NCBI GenBank assembly: GCA_902617525.1
Contig: CACMWW010000003.1
Location: forward strand, 1 to 64,000
Direction: 5' to 3'
Origin: an uncultured Pelagibacteraceae bacterium
Lineage (GTDB): Bacteria > Pseudomonadota > Alphaproteobacteria > Pelagibacterales > AG-422-B15
Length of the DNA: 64,000 nt
Part shown: positions 56,285 to 64,000 of the stretch, piece by piece
Position numbering within the stretch: the stretch's first letter is position 1
Layout: the number at the start of each line of letters is the position of its first letter
Position numbers and translations under genes: made by a program
Notes under the pieces: generated by a model
What the model was told of the DNA's origin: nothing
The model's input: the letters and a program-made list of their open reading frames with translations, nothing else
Databases searched by the model: none

Positions 56285-57346
56285 ATGGATCCTAATTTAA
56301 AAAAAATTCGAGACTCTGTCATTGAGTACACTTTAAAGTTGGACAATGACCAACTTGCACTCTTATTGTTAATTCAACTTTCTCGTCATCAAAATCTATT
56401 TATTCATGAGCCGTCAGATTGGGAAGATAGTCCAACAGGTTGGATTACAAAAGATCAAAGACTGCAAGATGAAGTTATTGCTATTTTATCTTTTATAATA
56501 CTTTTTTCATTTACAAACGCATACCACGATGAAAATTTATTCAAGGAGCATAGGAAAGAAATATTAGCAATGCATCCAGAGGATTTTCTTAATAATTCAA
56601 TTTATCAGTCATCATTTAATCGATTCATTGGCAAAAAAATTACTATCAGTTCACTTTCAGATCATTTCAATATTCCAAAAGAAAGTATGAGAAGATATCT
56701 AAATTCAGTTTTAGAAAGTGATTTGATAACCAAGAATTCAAAATATGGATACCTTGTAAATTTTGACGCTTATCAAGCATATATATTTACGAATTCATTA
56801 AGTAATATTTACAAATCAGTAATGCGCTCATTGAATGATTTTATATTAAATCTTGAAGATTATTTTGACATTAAATTTAATTTAAAGCCTCTAACTTCAA
56901 TCAATACAAAAAAATTTTCACAGTCTAAATGGAACAGAGTACGATTGCATTTATATCACTTCTGGGTAAGAATTCTTACATTAGAAGGTAGCGATCAATC
57001 ACTTTTACCAGCTGATCGTATAATACTCTCAGCTGCAGTATATTTTAAAAACAGACACGGTATATTAAAGTATAAATCCATTGAAGATTTATATGAGAGT
57101 GAACATCTTCTTCCAACAAACCTATCTTCAATTTCTGAGGCAGCAAAAATGCCGCGTGAAACTGTAAGACGATCTAGCAAGAAATTAATTGAATTGAAAC
57201 ATCTTGAAAAAAAGGGGAGAAATATTTACCGAGTTAATTACCCAAAACTCAATGGAGAGGTAGATATTTTTTTAAAATTTAAAGAATTAACTTTTACAGA
57301 AATGATGAACTTTTATTTCAATATTTATGAGGATCTAACGAGTTAA
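56285..57346 (+). CDS. Uncharacterised protein with two similar winged-HTH-like segments
   Basis: 353 aa; residues about 119-160 (ISSLSDHFNIPKESMRRYLNSVLESDLI) and 278-319 (LSSISEAAKMPRETVRRSSKKLIELKHL) align with each other. Confidence 0.7.
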   Translation: MDPNLKKIRDSVIEYTLKLDNDQLALLLLIQLSRHQNLFIHEPSDWEDSPTGWITKDQRLQDEVIAILSFIILFSFTNAYHDENLFKEHRKEILAMHPEDFLNNSIYQSSFNRFIGKKITISSLSDHFNIPKESMRRYLNSVLESDLITKNSKYGYLVNFDAYQAYIFTNSLSNIYKSVMRSLNDFILNLEDYFDIKFNLKPLTSINTKKFSQSKWNRVRLHLYHFWVRILTLEGSDQSLLPADRIILSAAVYFKNRHGILKYKSIEDLYESEHLLPTNLSSISEAAKMPRETVRRSSKKLIELKHLEKKGRNIYRVNYPKLNGEVDIFLKFKELTFTEMMNFYFNIYEDLTS

Positions 57347-60165
57347 ATTGAACACATTAGAATGACTTCTTCATTACAAGTAAGCTCAGCGTCAATAATT
57401 GAGCTATTCTCAGAACTTAATTGAGTATCAAGTTCTTCGAGCATTGATTTAGCCTCAACCATAGGAACTGGGCCGATTACTACTGAGAAGTCATTTTTAT
57501 CAAATTTTTCAACATTAATATCATATTTGAGGAAACGAGTATCAAAGCCCATTAAATCATATATGTAATTCATTAAGCTATTCGCCGAATTTCCTCGTTT
57601 ATATGACCCGATCTTAATATAAGCATACTCTGCATTTGATGAACTTTCTGAAAGATCATTGTCAGTTTCAGCTGGTACTTCACTTGCTTGAGCACTGAAA
57701 GAATTAGTTTCAGTATCAATACTTGTATCGACAAGTTCATTTAAATTTTCTAAAGCCTCTTCAGCCTCTTTAGCTAACTTTTCTTCAAGTGCTTCTTGAG
57801 CAGCTTTTTCTTCTAACTCTTTTTGTTTATTTTCTTCAATTAATTGAGCTAATTCTTCTTTTGCTTCAGCAGTTTCAGAAAGCAGTTGCTCATTTTCAGT
57901 GAGAAGTTCCTCATTCTCAGCTAAAAGCTTTTCGTTTTCTTGAATAATTTTTTTTGTTGGCAAAATATTATCTTCTTCAACTGCATTAGCACTTGTTTCA
58001 TTTGTAGTTATAACTTCGTCATCAGTATTGGCACTGGCAGTTTCATCAAAGATTTGATTATTAAACTCTAGTGAGTCCTGTTCTTCATTCAATTGGTCAA
58101 GTGATCCTTCAAGCAACTGATCAACCGAGTCCAGAAGGTCATTTAGTTCTTCAGCTGATACATTACTAAACTCATATTCTGCCTCAATTGGTTCAGATGT
58201 TGTTTCTTCTACTTCCATTTGATCTTCAACTTCAACAGTTTCAACTGAAACTGCTTCCACTTCTTCATCCGGCAATACTTCATCTTCATTACTTAACCTT
58301 GTCATCCGCGCAAGTTCTTCTCTTGCTTTCTGACTTTCATTTGCGAGGAAAGTTTCTTCATCAACAAATCTTAGAACAAAGTTATCCTCAGCTGATACTA
58401 GGGCATTTGCAACTGTCATTTTAAGTTTTATACCTGATACATCCTCTGGTGGGTTACCAACTATTGATAAATCTGATGTGAGGAAAGCAAGCCATCGAGG
58501 TAAGTCAGTGCCATCTTCTTGTGTCACTGAGTATCTCAATTTTCCTGGCCCAGTGATATTAAATGTATCTTTAGATACCTTAAATTTGTTACTAGATTGT
58601 TTTGTATTAATCGGGTCTGTGATTACTAGAAGTTGTGGGTTTTGATCATTCAAAGGAATATTAACTGCTGCCTGATAAGTTACGCCCCACTCAGCTAGAT
58701 TGGCTTTTATGCTATTACCTAAGTCCTCGATTGATAGATTTTGATGATCTGCTGGCAAAATGTCTTTACCAATTGATGCATAAATCTGACCGATACTGTG
58801 CTGCATTTCAGAGAAGGCTAAATCTTTTCTTAGCTCTGCAACTAAAAGACTTGCTTCTTCTCGAATAACTTCAAGCTCACCAAATCTTGAGACTTTCTGG
58901 GCATTTTTGACTTGTTTACTTATTCTTTGTGCCACATCCAAATATCTTTGCGCTGTGTCATATTCCTCAATTGCAAGGTCATAATTGATATTCGATAAAT
59001 GAACCTGAGAGAGTACTGTCATGGCTATTGCAAGATGTCTTTCGGCAATGAGCTCTTGGTTTGCCTTCGAAGCTTTTCTAGTTGCTCCAATTGAGAAGAT
59101 GTCAAATAGATTGCCGCCGATTGATGCTCCATACTCTGTTGTATCTTGATTTAGCAAGTAATCATTATTTGTGTAACCATATGCAGCATTAAATTTTAAG
59201 CTTGGTATAAGTGCTAACATAGCTGCCCTTGTATCTTTACTTGTAATTCTTTTTTGATATCGACTTTCCATAAGTTCAGGTCTTGAAAGAAGTGCTATTT
59301 CCTCCATAGCTTGAATATCCATATTAAGGTTTGTTAAATATGTATCATTCTCAGCAAGTGTGAATTTTTCACTAGGAAGCAGACCCATTAATGTTGCTAA
59401 CTCGTTTTTTGAATTTACGAGAGCACGTTTTTGTGTTTGAAGTGTTCTCTGTACGTCAAGTAACTCTTTTTGATAAAGTAAAGAGTCCATTGGGGCCGAG
59501 ATTAAAAGTTCTTCAATGTATTGAGAATCTGCCAATGCGTCTTCAACTCTCTTAAGGAGTGGGTTAAGTTTTTCAAGAAGATTTTCTGATGCTTGGGCTT
59601 TCCAGTATGACCTGATAATATCTCTAGTAATATTTTGAATAGCCTTTCTCTCAAGTTCCTTCGCAATTAAATATCTATCCGCCTGTTGTCCTGCCCTTAT
59701 GTATGAGAGTCCAAAGTCTAGTGCATTCCAAGTAAATTCAATACCTCTTGTTGCCTGACCTTTATCTCTTGAGATAGTGTATCCTTCGGTTCCATCAATT
59801 GATGGTGCAACACTATCATCCGATGCAACGGTTTTACTAGTAGAAGGTTGAAGTTCCGTAAATTCAGAATAACCAGCACTGAGTGCTATGTCAGGAAGCA
59901 TATCAAATTTTTGCAAGTCTCTTTGACTCTGTGATAGAGCAGACTCCATAACACTTAACCTTAAATCGCGATTGTTTCTGACAGCAATTGCAATTGCAGT
60001 GTGTAAATCAATATTTTTTAAAGATTCGTCAATTTCAAGTTCGGCAATTTCCTCAGCAACTGAAACACTTAATGACTCTGCATCAATTACTCTTGGAGAT
60101 CGTGCACAAGCAACGAGCGCCAAACATATGAAAACTATAAATAATTTTTTTATTGGGTTGACCAT
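57343..60165 (-). CDS. TolC-family outer membrane lipoprotein with cadherin-like, acidic coiled-coil and SPOR-like C-terminal regions
   Basis: 940 aa; lipobox LVAC; TolC/OEP repeats about 45-500; cadherin-like segment about 525-602; coiled coil about 738-812; SPOR-like YAYIKIGSYKRGNSANSLMNYIYDLMGFDTRFL...FSVVIGPVPMVEAKSMLEEL. Confidence 0.85.
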   Translation of the reverse strand: MVNPIKKLFIVFICLALVACARSPRVIDAESLSVSVAEEIAELEIDESLKNIDLHTAIAIAVRNNRDLRLSVMESALSQSQRDLQKFDMLPDIALSAGYSEFTELQPSTSKTVASDDSVAPSIDGTEGYTISRDKGQATRGIEFTWNALDFGLSYIRAGQQADRYLIAKELERKAIQNITRDIIRSYWKAQASENLLEKLNPLLKRVEDALADSQYIEELLISAPMDSLLYQKELLDVQRTLQTQKRALVNSKNELATLMGLLPSEKFTLAENDTYLTNLNMDIQAMEEIALLSRPELMESRYQKRITSKDTRAAMLALIPSLKFNAAYGYTNNDYLLNQDTTEYGASIGGNLFDIFSIGATRKASKANQELIAERHLAIAMTVLSQVHLSNINYDLAIEEYDTAQRYLDVAQRISKQVKNAQKVSRFGELEVIREEASLLVAELRKDLAFSEMQHSIGQIYASIGKDILPADHQNLSIEDLGNSIKANLAEWGVTYQAAVNIPLNDQNPQLLVITDPINTKQSSNKFKVSKDTFNITGPGKLRYSVTQEDGTDLPRWLAFLTSDLSIVGNPPEDVSGIKLKMTVANALVSAEDNFVLRFVDEETFLANESQKAREELARMTRLSNEDEVLPDEEVEAVSVETVEVEDQMEVEETTSEPIEAEYEFSNVSAEELNDLLDSVDQLLEGSLDQLNEEQDSLEFNNQIFDETASANTDDEVITTNETSANAVEEDNILPTKKIIQENEKLLAENEELLTENEQLLSETAEAKEELAQLIEENKQKELEEKAAQEALEEKLAKEAEEALENLNELVDTSIDTETNSFSAQASEVPAETDNDLSESSSNAEYAYIKIGSYKRGNSANSLMNYIYDLMGFDTRFLKYDINVEKFDKNDFSVVIGPVPMVEAKSMLEELDTQLSSENSSIIDAELTCNEEVILMCSI

Positions 60166-60372
60166 TTATTTGTTTTTATAAAAACCAAGATACTGTCTTA
60201 ACGGGTAACCGTATCCGGCGCAAGTAATACCAAACTTTAGTAATTTCAGTGTATATATAACCGCCCATTTTGGGTTTTTTTTGCGATCTTGCTACATTTA
60301 GTAGCATTACTGCTGTATACAGAAAAGGTATATTTATCAATAAATTACTAAATTTTATTTATATAAATTAAC

Positions 60373-63300
60373 ATGACCAAAAAACTAATTCAGGCACTCG
60401 AACCACGTATGATGCTCGATGGAGCTGCGGTTGCAACTGCAATTGATACCATTGATGACTTAGCAAATGCGAACAAAACTGATTTAGACAAAAGATTAAA
60501 AGAAAATAATTTTAAAACCGAACAAGATACAAAACTTCCATTTGTAAATCGTGAAAGCATTAATCAAAACACACGCACAAAACAATTTGTGTTTATTGAT
60601 AGTGCAATCGATGACATCGAAGTCTTAATTGAAAGTTTTGATGACAATACTGAAGTGCACATCATCCAAAGTGATGTGGATGGTTTTAAAGAGATGCAAA
60701 ATATTCTCGCTGATGAAAAAAACATTGATGGTATTCATGTTATTGGTCACGGTAGCATTGGTCAGATTGCATTTGGTGATGCGATTTTAAACAGTGATAC
60801 ATTAAATGAGTACAAACAAACTTTAAAAGACATTGGCGCAAGCCTCAGTGCTGATGGTGATATCTTATTCTACGGTTGTAATATTGCAGCAGATGAAAGT
60901 GGCGAGATTTTAATTAAGCAAATTGCTGAAATTACTGAAGCTGATGTAGCGGCATCAGATGATGTAACGGGTAAAGGTGGTGACTGGGATCTTGAAAAGC
61001 ATTCAGGTATTATTGAGACTAAAAATATTGATGTTGAGAATTATGCTCATTCACTTGCAAATGGAGTAGCTTCAACTGATGCAGATGTAGTTGAAATTCA
61101 CAGTGCTACAAATTATCGAGCAAGATGGTCAGGTGATAATTCTGGCGGTCAACAAGATCCAAGTTCTGATCGATTTATTATCTCTCAAGAGAGAGCTGAT
61201 GTAACAGGTGGAGCAGGGACTTTAAATTTTGACGTATCAGGAGCAAAGAGTTCACATACACCAAGTTCTAGTGAACCAGTTCATGTATATTTACTTTTTT
61301 CAAATGATGACACAGATAGCAATAGCCGTCGATCTGGTTCAAGAACAGGTGTTGTGACTTTTGAGAATGACATTTTAGGTGTCTTTACCAGTCCGTACAA
61401 CACGATTGCTATGACAGGAATTTCAAAATCAGGGGCCTCATATCCAACAGCAAGTTCGGACAAAATCGGAATGAGGGATTTGGAGTATAAAAATGATAAT
61501 GCGCCAGGACAGCAGGGGAATAAAGACTGGTTTAGAATTTATAACTCAAACAGATCGATTGAAATTGGTACAAAAAACGGCCTTAAAGGTGACTTTATTC
61601 GTGTCATTACTAGAGCTCCAATCGAAAACAATGGACCTACTGGTAATAACGACACGGGGGCAGTAAATGAAGATGCGAGCGTTTCAGTAACTGCGGGCAG
61701 TGGTGTTTTATCAAATGATACAGATCCTGACGGTGATACACTATCCGTAAGTGCAATATCAGGCGGCTCCATTGGATCAGCTCTAAATGGTACATACGGT
61801 CAGCTAACTATGAGTGCAGATGGCAGCTACACTTATATCGCAAATAGAGATGATGCAGACCCTCTTGATCCAGGCGATACAGTAACAGATACATTTACAT
61901 ACACAGTATCTGATGGAACTGATACAGATACCGCAACACTCACAATTACTATTACTGGAGTTAATGATCCGATAACAGCTGTGAATGATACAGATGCTGT
62001 GAATGAAGATGCAACAATTAATCGAAGCACTTCGGACTCTCAAGAGTTAGATCATGACGACACCGACCCTGATGCCGATGATGCGTCTGGTAGCTTTACA
62101 ATCACTGCAATTAGAACAGGAAGAGAATCTGCAACCAGTGGAACAACTGCAGGCACAATCGGACAGGCTCTAAATGGTACTTACGGTGTATTAACTGTAG
62201 CTGCAGATGGTAGCTATAGCTATGCCGCAACCAGAAGCGGAGCAGATGCGTTAGCGGCAGGAGTATCAGCAATTGATTATTTTACCTATACAGTAAGAGA
62301 TCATGCAAGCAGTCCAAATGATACAGATACTGCTGAGCTTGCAATAACAGTAACAGGAGTAGGTCCAAGTGCGAGCAATGATACTGGCAGTGTAAATGAA
62401 AATGCAACTCTAACAGCAAATGCTGGTGCAGGTGTAATTGCAAATGACACAGGTGGCGACACAGAAAGTCTCGCAGTTACTAACATCAGTTCAAATGCTA
62501 CTGGAAACAGTGGTAACGCTGCTCAAGGTGTTCTTGGAACATATGGTACGCTCACAGTAGCTGCTGATGGCAGTTATACTTATGTTGCTAACACAGCAGC
62601 AGCAGAAGCACTCGATGCAGGTGACGAAGTCACAGATATTTTTACTTATACAGTCAAAGATGATGATGATGTTAATTCAGATACAGCAACTCTAACGATT
62701 ACAGTTACAGGTGTAGACGATGACCCAGTTGGTAACAATGATGCAGGCGCAATCAATGAGGATAAAACCCTTACTGTTAGCGCGGGAAGCGGAGTATTAT
62801 CAAATGATACTGATGCAGATGCTAGTTCAAGTCTATCAGTTTCTGCAATTTCGGGCGGTACAGTTGGTGCATCATTAAATGGAACCTATGGTGTTCTGAC
62901 TTTGAGTTCAGATGGTAGTTATACTTATGTTGCAAATGGTAGAAGTGAGGATGGTCTCGCTGCTGACGCCACGGCAACCGATACATTCACGTATACCGTA
63001 AGTGATGGAGCAGGAACAACCGATACAGCAGATTTAGTCATCACAGTAACCGGAGTTGGTCCGCAAGCCGTTAATGATACCGGTGCAGTCAATGAAGATG
63101 CCACTTTAACAGTAAATGAAGCATCTGGTGTAATCAGTAATGATGATGACAATGCAAGTTACGACGTAGAGAGTTTAGCCATAACTGGCATTTCTCACGG
63201 CGTTACTGGAAATAGTGGTAATGCTGCACAAGCTGTTACTGGAACATACGGTGTTTTAACTATGGCGGCTGATGGTAGCTATACATATGTTGCTAACCAA

Positions 63301-64000
63301 GCAGCGGCTGATGAACTTGATCCGAGTGAGACGGCAACAGATGTGTTTACATACACCGTTAAAGACGATGCTGATAAAAATGCCAGTACTGCAACATTAA
63401 CCATAACCGTAACGGGGTTAGCTGATGCAATCACTGCTGTTGATGATACAGATGCAGTAAATGCTGGTAGCACAATTTCGAGAAGCACGAGCGATACACA
63501 AGAACTTGATCACGATGACACCGATGATGATGGTGATGATGTTCCAGGTAGCTTAACCATTACAGCAATACGAACTGGTCAAAAATCAGGCAGTGGTGAC
63601 GCTAAAACACTTGGGCAATCGTTTACTACAACTTATGGAACAGTAACAATCAATGCTGACGGTTCATATTCTTACGCTGCCAATCGAAGTGGCGCAATGA
63701 GCTTATCTGATGGTGCGACTGCAGTTGATTACTTCACATATACTGTAAGAGACCAATCTGGCAATACCTCTAATGGACAACTTGCAATTACTGTGACTGG
63801 AATTGACTCAGGATCAAATAACGCTCCTGTTGCCAATAACGATACTGGAGCTGTTGATGAAGATGCAACACTTACAGTAAATGCAGCCAGTGGGGCTGAA
63901 TCAAATGATAGTGATCCAGATGGAGATGATATTTCTGTTGTGGCTATATCTGGAGGATCTGTTGGCTCAGCTGTAACAGGTACTTATGGACAATTAACAA
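60373..64000 (+). CDS. Giant surface/secreted protein: LEPR-type N-terminal motif, DUF4347, tandem VCBS/cadherin-like repeats; truncated at window end
   Basis: Translated manually, no stop to 64000: MTKKLIQALEPRMMLDGAAVATA...; DUF4347 segment IDGIHVIGHGSIGQIAFGDAIL...ILFYGCNIAADESGEILI; at least 7 repeats of NDTGAVNEDA...NGTYGxLTxxADGSYTYxAN...TDTFTYTVxDG...TLTITVTGV. Confidence 0.93.
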   Translation, partial: MTKKLIQALEPRMMLDGAAVATAIDTIDDLANANKTDLDKRLKENNFKTEQDTKLPFVNRESINQNTRTKQFVFIDSAIDDIEVLIESFDDNTEVHIIQSDVDGFKEMQNILADEKNIDGIHVIGHGSIGQIAFGDAILNSDTLNEYKQTLKDIGASLSADGDILFYGCNIAADESGEILIKQIAEITEADVAASDDVTGKGGDWDLEKHSGIIETKNIDVENYAHSLANGVASTDADVVEIHSATNYRARWSGDNSGGQQDPSSDRFIISQERADVTGGAGTLNFDVSGAKSSHTPSSSEPVHVYLLFSNDDTDSNSRRSGSRTGVVTFENDILGVFTSPYNTIAMTGISKSGASYPTASSDKIGMRDLEYKNDNAPGQQGNKDWFRIYNSNRSIEIGTKNGLKGDFIRVITRAPIENNGPTGNNDTGAVNEDASVSVTAGSGVLSNDTDPDGDTLSVSAISGGSIGSALNGTYGQLTMSADGSYTYIANRDDADPLDPGDTVTDTFTYTVSDGTDTDTATLTITITGVNDPITAVNDTDAVNEDATINRSTSDSQELDHDDTDPDADDASGSFTITAIRTGRESATSGTTAGTIGQALNGTYGVLTVAADGSYSYAATRSGADALAAGVSAIDYFTYTVRDHASSPNDTDTAELAITVTGVGPSASNDTGSVNENATLTANAGAGVIANDTGGDTESLAVTNISSNATGNSGNAAQGVLGTYGTLTVAADGSYTYVANTAAAEALDAGDEVTDIFTYTVKDDDDVNSDTATLTITVTGVDDDPVGNNDAGAINEDKTLTVSAGSGVLSNDTDADASSSLSVSAISGGTVGASLNGTYGVLTLSSDGSYTYVANGRSEDGLAADATATDTFTYTVSDGAGTTDTADLVITVTGVGPQAVNDTGAVNEDATLTVNEASGVISNDDDNASYDVESLAITGISHGVTGNSGNAAQAVTGTYGVLTMAADGSYTYVANQAAADELDPSETATDVFTYTVKDDADKNASTATLTITVTGLADAITAVDDTDAVNAGSTISRSTSDTQELDHDDTDDDGDDVPGSLTITAIRTGQKSGSGDAKTLGQSFTTTYGTVTINADGSYSYAANRSGAMSLSDGATAVDYFTYTVRDQSGNTSNGQLAITVTGIDSGSNNAPVANNDTGAVDEDATLTVNAASGAESNDSDPDGDDISVVAISGGSVGSAVTGTYGQLT
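60580..61055 (+). other. DUF4347-like domain of the giant protein
   Basis: QFVFIDSAIDDIEVLIESF...HVIGHGSIGQ...FYGCNIAADESG...ADVAASDDVTGKGGDWDLE. Confidence 0.8.
61633..64000 (+). repeat. Degenerate tandem VCBS/cadherin-like repeats, about 330-400 bp each, at least 7 units, continuing past the window
   Basis: Unit starts near 61633, 61972, 62371, 62728, 63067, 63427, 63820, each NDT(G/D)AVNEDA-like. Confidence 0.9.

Follow-up and report, generated by a model that had tools for sequence, protein, structure and literature searches.

A 64,000-nucleotide stretch of the genome of an uncultured Pelagibacteraceae bacterium (contig CACMWW010000003.1, positions 1 to 64,000; hereafter the window) encodes a TolC/NodT-type outer-membrane factor (OMF) lipoprotein with a composite C-terminal tail. 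The tail comprises an immunoglobulin (Ig)-like He_PIG domain, an acidic linker, a predicted long helix and a last domain which, judged by sequence profiles and structure prediction, is a divergent SPOR domain missed by Pfam. The gene stands next to that of a giant LEPR/DUF4347/VCBS protein. The interpretation favoured here, held with about even confidence, is that the channel would be the dedicated exit for this giant and the tail its tether to the cell wall; the anatomy and the homologies are observed, and the later steps are inferred from them. Named relatives place the group in SAR11 (Pelagibacteraceae, AG-422-B15 group), a group that ranks with the most abundant cells of the ocean and is commonly regarded as stripped-down. 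Here several genes are kept for the export of a giant surface protein, and the channel among them appears made for attachment to the wall.

The channel gene and its parts are as follows (aa, amino acids; AF2, AlphaFold2; pLDDT, predicted local distance difference test):

57343-60165, minus strand: channel gene, TolC/NodT-type OMF lipoprotein with He_PIG, acidic linker, helix and divergent SPOR tail (940 aa, ATG start)
60106-60165, minus strand: signal peptide and lipobox, residues 1-20 (LVAC, Cys20), from sequence, hydrophobic segment and alignment conservation
58768-60006, minus strand: two OEP repeats (Pfam PF02321, E 1.3e-32)
58375-58632, minus strand: He_PIG Ig-like domain, residues 512-597 (Pfam PF05345, E 1.4e-5)
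57955-58350, minus strand: acidic linker, residues 606-737, hypervariable (composition and alignment)
57733-57954, minus strand: predicted long helix or coiled coil, residues 738-811 (AF2 secondary structure, pLDDT about 53-62)
57346-57630, minus strand: domain assigned as divergent SPOR, residues 846-940 (hhalign with shuffles, AF2, orthologous Pfam SPOR tails)

Position, strand and length of the open reading frame (ORF) are exact, and most of the anatomy proposed in an earlier note on this DNA, made from the sequence alone, was recovered. The outer-membrane efflux part scores 113.5 bits in two stretches, above the curated Pfam cut-off, and Cys20 of the proposed lipobox is nearly invariant in the family alignment. 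The suspected He_PIG segment passes its Pfam cut-off (25.9 bits against 24). The linker, described as very acidic, has 41 Asp/Glu against 4 Lys/Arg over 132 residues; residues 738-812 contain 24 Asp/Glu and 9 Lys/Arg, and AF2 predicts a helix of about 75 aa where a coiled coil had been expected. With NodT/TolC outer-membrane factors (PF02321, TIGR01845) the protein shares two OEP repeats, a lipobox and an expected trimeric channel, but a C-terminal extension of about 440 aa, made up of He_PIG, the acidic spacer, the helix and a predicted SPOR fold, sets it apart from them. Its TIGR01845 score is 41 bits against a cut-off of 210.

The full-length architecture is kept across the genus at 63-92% identity in those relatives that have the whole gene; in other relatives partial copies are found at contig ends. 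Because the whole architecture is conserved to this degree, it is, judging by the alignments, neither an assembly artefact nor a product of chance. Conservation covers the channel, the Ig domain and the last domain, while the linker is hypervariable. A full-length AF2 model was poor (mean pLDDT 49.6) and is not used as a structure of the complete channel. A literature search, whose coverage did not extend to subscription journals, found no description of this channel architecture.

Identity of the last domain

The earlier note had called the end of the protein SPOR-like. A Pfam domain search did not bear this out: SPOR (PF05036) is absent from the window protein even at E<=1. With a SPOR hidden Markov model (HMM) made from some 30 SPOR domains of Alphaproteobacteria, the window tail reached 3.2 bits, within the range of 200 shuffles (best 4.1). 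Profile comparison and orthology did support the assignment. When a profile of 28 tails was compared with four SPOR profiles using hhalign, scores of 21.5-27.0 were obtained, and none of 300 column shuffles reached any of them. The alignment is collinear, with YIKIGSY falling on VQVASF and FSVVIGP on YRLRIGY.

Modelled by AF2 from the tails of the clade only, without outside SPOR sequences, the domain has the order beta-alpha-beta-beta-alpha-beta plus a further strand (mean pLDDT 77.7). Foldseek searches of the PDB with this model returned generic ferredoxin-like folds at a TM-score of about 0.5, compatible with SPOR and not specific for it; there was no SPOR entry among the 50 PDB matches listed. 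When the tail profile was run against PDB sequences, nothing beyond CRISPR regulators at chance level came up, and this search was discarded.

Orthologues provide the third line of evidence. In sister marine Alphaproteobacteria five orthologues of the channel, encoded at this locus, have tails that score 21.7-25.1 bits for Pfam SPOR, above the cut-off of 21, and the window-clade tails align collinearly with the sister SPOR tails in a direct comparison (P 2.4e-4). The profile-profile scores, the predicted fold and these orthologous tails, taken together, are the grounds on which the last domain is assigned to SPOR. It resembles known SPOR proteins (PF05036; FtsN, DamX, RlpA) in the predicted fold order, the collinear profile match and a C-terminal position after a long linker. 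It differs in lying below Pfam detection, in having lost glycan-contacting Gln and Arg residues, and in being joined to an export channel rather than to a division protein.

Tails of related channels

A tree of SAR11-type channels has three clades: that of the window, a sister clade and a Pelagibacter clade. Tails of the window clade carry He_PIG, the acidic linker, the helix and the divergent SPOR domain. Sister-clade tails have He_PIG, a shorter linker and a canonical SPOR domain, and beside them stands a five-member branch with He_PIG only and no coil. The two SPOR clades were grouped with weak support (80/22), and from these sequences a single gain of SPOR followed by loss in Pelagibacter cannot be told apart from other histories. 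The Pelagibacter channels (L124-L139, L144, L151) end in long Lys/Glu-rich repeats of variable length.

In the sister clade (genomes G692-G704; loci L105-L109, L111, L113, L114, L116, L117, L119, L140, L152) exactly one Pfam SPOR match was detected in 12 of the 13 genomes, always in the channel's own frame of 813-842 aa; the thirteenth had none. In the two He_PIG-only genomes examined the single SPOR match sits in another protein, a frame of 378-381 aa. The one of these that was read (L364:2585-3688) looks by sequence like a D-alanyl-D-alanine carboxypeptidase.

The exporter itself is not restricted to SAR11. Relatives of an M50 peptidase-HlyD fusion encoded with the giant were detected in 90 of 399 sampled Pseudomonadota genomes (E<=1e-30), and a homologous cassette (TolC-adaptor-HlyD-M50/HlyD) occurs in distant Alphaproteobacteria and other Pseudomonadota. 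From these, 51 channel proteins were collected near an M50 or HlyD relative, class-level matches included. Pfam found SPOR in 6 of their tails, SH3_3 in 5, OmpA and AMIN in 2 each, and Cds6_C, an NTF2-like domain, in 4. When the tails were read, 15 of the 51, all different proteins, had a SPOR, SH3, OmpA or AMIN tail, against 0 of 27 random Pseudomonadota channels (Fisher 0.0008; control channels were the best-scoring OEP matches, and the genomes compared are related). What had appeared a one-off domain fusion thus becomes a pattern, in which channels for giant proteins carry wall-binding feet of various unrelated types. Cds6_C lies in the channel tails of L222, L256, L257 and L276, the last of which also has a SPOR-like end.

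TolC-SPOR and TolC-AMIN channels elsewhere in Pseudomonadota (L164, L253, L269, L272, L318-L320, L210) likewise combine a channel with a wall-binding C-terminal domain. They differ in lacking the He_PIG-acidic-helix spacer, and some are not beside an M50 exporter: the channels at L318, L319 and L320 (1024-1073 aa) have two SPOR-like domains each and no M50 exporter next to them. At L321, L323 and L325 DUF4347/LEPR giant genes adjoin channels of about 880 aa, and an M50-HlyD relative was not found within the fetched stretch.

Since channels beside the M50 exporter carry differing tails of wall-binding type, the survey supports wall tethering as a recurring purpose that such tails may have, without exclusivity to this exporter. 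That the tails are exclusive to it was considered and dropped, because same-genome controls also carried them and channels chosen by length often had SPOR.

A wider proposal, tentative and on balance doubtful, is that a distinct, non-ABC export system for giant LEPR-leader proteins, made up of an M50 peptidase-HlyD fusion, two adaptors and an outer-membrane channel, would be widespread in Pseudomonadota and SAR11, and that its exit channel would repeatedly and independently have gained interchangeable peptidoglycan-binding feet (SPOR, OmpA-like, SH3, AMIN), the only SPOR domain of the sister clade serving export and not division. The system also offers an example of a SPOR domain that may no longer act in division, where such domains usually serve. 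The comparison opens to testing the general question of whether export machinery for very large surface proteins must be mechanically anchored.

Proposed wall tethering and other possible functions of the tail

In outer-membrane factors the C-terminus lies at the periplasmic equatorial ring, where C-terminal elongations matter for export in known cases (PMC8277102). In the favoured mechanism three protomers would form a TolC-like trimer, lipid-anchored at Cys20, and because channel C-termini lie at the ring, the tails would hang in the periplasm, three per channel. Along each tail an Ig domain would be followed by a flexible spacer of negative charge, then by a helix and a foot with the SPOR fold. 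The tail is probably a periplasmic tether with an uncertain ligand; the three feet would hold the channel or its assembly to the cell wall, or to a component attached to the wall. Such tethering would keep the exit site in place while a very large surface protein pulls on it.

Several observations weigh against this mechanism or limit it. The Pelagibacter tail is He_PIG plus a Lys/Glu-rich coil and contains no SPOR domain. In many channels belonging to this exporter the tail is short and lacks a wall-binding domain, and because these short-tailed channels and the Pelagibacter coil exist, a SPOR foot is evidently not required for the export system. Long-tailed channels away from the M50 gene can carry SPOR, even in tandem. 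Among other channels of the same host genomes 3 of 29 have SPOR or AMIN, so that the excess beside the exporter reaches a Fisher value of only 0.057. Amidase_3 (PF01520) was not found in 39 order-level and 15 sister genomes, a search limited to that amidase family. Finally, residues expected to read glycan have changed. The SPOR domain of RlpA reads denuded glycan through Gln270 and three arginines that form a patch, Arg302, Arg309 and Arg311 (PMC6895207). The window tail has Lys, Ser and Val at the positions aligned to Gln270, Arg309 and Arg311, a comparison limited to these three as the Arg302 position was not assignable. The Lys at the Gln270-equivalent position is invariant in 28 of 28 tails.

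Amidase_3 is the family that produces denuded glycan in E. coli. The lack of any match to it in 39 SAR11-order and 15 sister genomes is unusual for Gram-negatives with SPOR domains. A SPOR scan of 39 genomes found none at E<=1e-6, a threshold too strict for weak SPOR domains (sister matches lie near 1e-5), so SAR11 is not claimed to be SPOR-free.

The earlier note had suggested that a peptidoglycan-binding tail might anchor the exit duct at the septum or the cell wall. A role at the wall is plausible, given the orthologues with Pfam SPOR and the SPOR, SH3, OmpA and AMIN tails of other channels. The septal half of the suggestion fares worse: because the glycan-reading Gln and Arg are lost and Amidase_3 was not found in related genomes, the case for septal placement through denuded glycan is weak. 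Binding to denuded septal glycan is accordingly no part of the mechanism, given the side chains lost in the window clade; the tail may bind wall or protein more generally.

The same replacements and the same lack of an Amidase_3 source would also fit a SPOR fold that has been repurposed. In this alternative the domain would not bind glycan and would dock a periplasmic protein (an adaptor of the operon, or a division or wall enzyme), acting in assembly or recruitment. The domain is strongly conserved although the linker is not, as would suit such a role. However, sister-clade tails retain the Gln and one Arg, and most contacts between SPOR and glycan are made by the main chain (PMC6895207), so the loss of side chains need not abolish binding. 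The alternative is considered rather unlikely.

The tail might instead be mainly a mechanical or trimer-stabilising spacer, in which the helix and the charge would matter and the terminal domain little, a Lys/Glu-rich coil replacing it in Pelagibacter. A helical or charged element does recur while the type of tail varies between clades. However, few parts of the protein are as well conserved within the window clade as the terminal domain, and the He_PIG-only branch has no coil at all; this explanation seems improbable.

Least expected is that He_PIG is the key part, retaining the giant at the channel (cargo capture) with the SPOR foot as an accessory. He_PIG is the tail element common to most SAR11-type channels, and an HMM built from the channel He_PIG domains matches the C-terminal part of the adjacent giant (1.2e-7 overall; residues 2074-2116 and 2211-2241) and that of Pelagibacter giants (about 4e-15). 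Ig-type domains are, however, common and freely exchanged, no He_PIG match was obtained in more distant channels with this type of exporter, and the topology (a periplasmic domain, an exported cargo) allows contact only in transit. The homology between the channel Ig domain and the cargo's final domains makes a transient contact with passing cargo conceivable, if speculative.

The giant protein and its putative export operon

The neighbours of the channel gene are:

60166-60372, no strand: divergent intergenic region between the channel gene and the giant-protein operon (ORF coordinates; the two genes lie on opposite strands in 60 of the 63 loci that contain them)
60373-63999, plus strand, running to contig position 67359: LEPR/DUF4347/VCBS giant protein, N-terminal 1209 of 2328 aa in the window
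56285-57346, plus strand: convergent helix-turn-helix-like ORF overlapping the 3' end of the channel gene (weak helix-turn-helix matches below cut-off)

The association with LEPR/DUF4347 giants, to which the earlier note had pointed, is general among relatives. Of 70 related loci surveyed in genome contigs 68 had the channel, and in 63 of these 68 the giant gene adjoins it, on the opposite strand in 60. All five genes are present within 28 loci. The giant (2328 aa) has VCBS/cadherin repeats, DUF4347, the LEPR motif and two C-terminal Ig-like domains; no hydrophobic signal was seen in it, and its N-terminus bears a conserved motif of the LEPRxMxDGAA type. Beyond the window follow genes for an RND-type adaptor (239 aa), an HlyD-type protein (445 aa) and the M50 peptidase-HlyD fusion (702 aa, HELGH). 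The giant and exporter genes span contig positions 60373-71533 (L005:5373-16533).

The earlier note had regarded the channel as part of type I secretion, and this was not supported. No ABC transporter is present among the operon genes (adaptor, HlyD, M50-HlyD), and the best HlyB-like match of the genome lies about 55 kb away and scores 343 bits against a cut-off of 725. For these reasons membership is not established, and on the gene content type I secretion serves as an analogy. With type I systems (HlyB/HlyD/TolC; LapEBC for giant adhesins) the cluster shares a TolC-like channel, HlyD-type adaptors and a very large repeat-rich cargo without a Sec signal. In contrast to them it has an M50 peptidase-HlyD fusion where the ABC exporter would be expected, and its cargo bears a conserved LEPR leader.

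In its N-terminal half the M50-HlyD protein resembles the daptide leader peptidase family (2.5e-32; 112.5 bits against a curated cut-off of 300), and its HELGH sequence fits the HExxH core of M50 peptidases. The daptide peptidase removes its leader in an RRE-dependent way (PMC10036551). The likeness to this intramembrane peptidase (MpaP, NF041824) lies in that N-terminal half; the M50-HlyD protein differs in falling under the curated cut-off, in being fused to an HlyD domain and in having a 2328-aa protein as its cargo. In the favoured mechanism the inner partners of the channel would be the two HlyD-type adaptors and the M50-HlyD fusion, whose peptidase-like half could be what recognises and cleaves the giant's conserved LEPR leader. 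Such cleavage is a reasonable lead, and export of a 2328-aa giant by leader processing without an ABC pump is possible.

Two smaller observations concern neighbouring proteins. About 170 N-terminal residues of the HlyD-type protein (L005:13087-14424), before its single transmembrane-like segment, match no Pfam family and look GAF-like by eye. The helix-turn-helix-like ORF at 56285-57346 is possibly a regulator, and a related genome (L031) has a homologue in the corresponding position.

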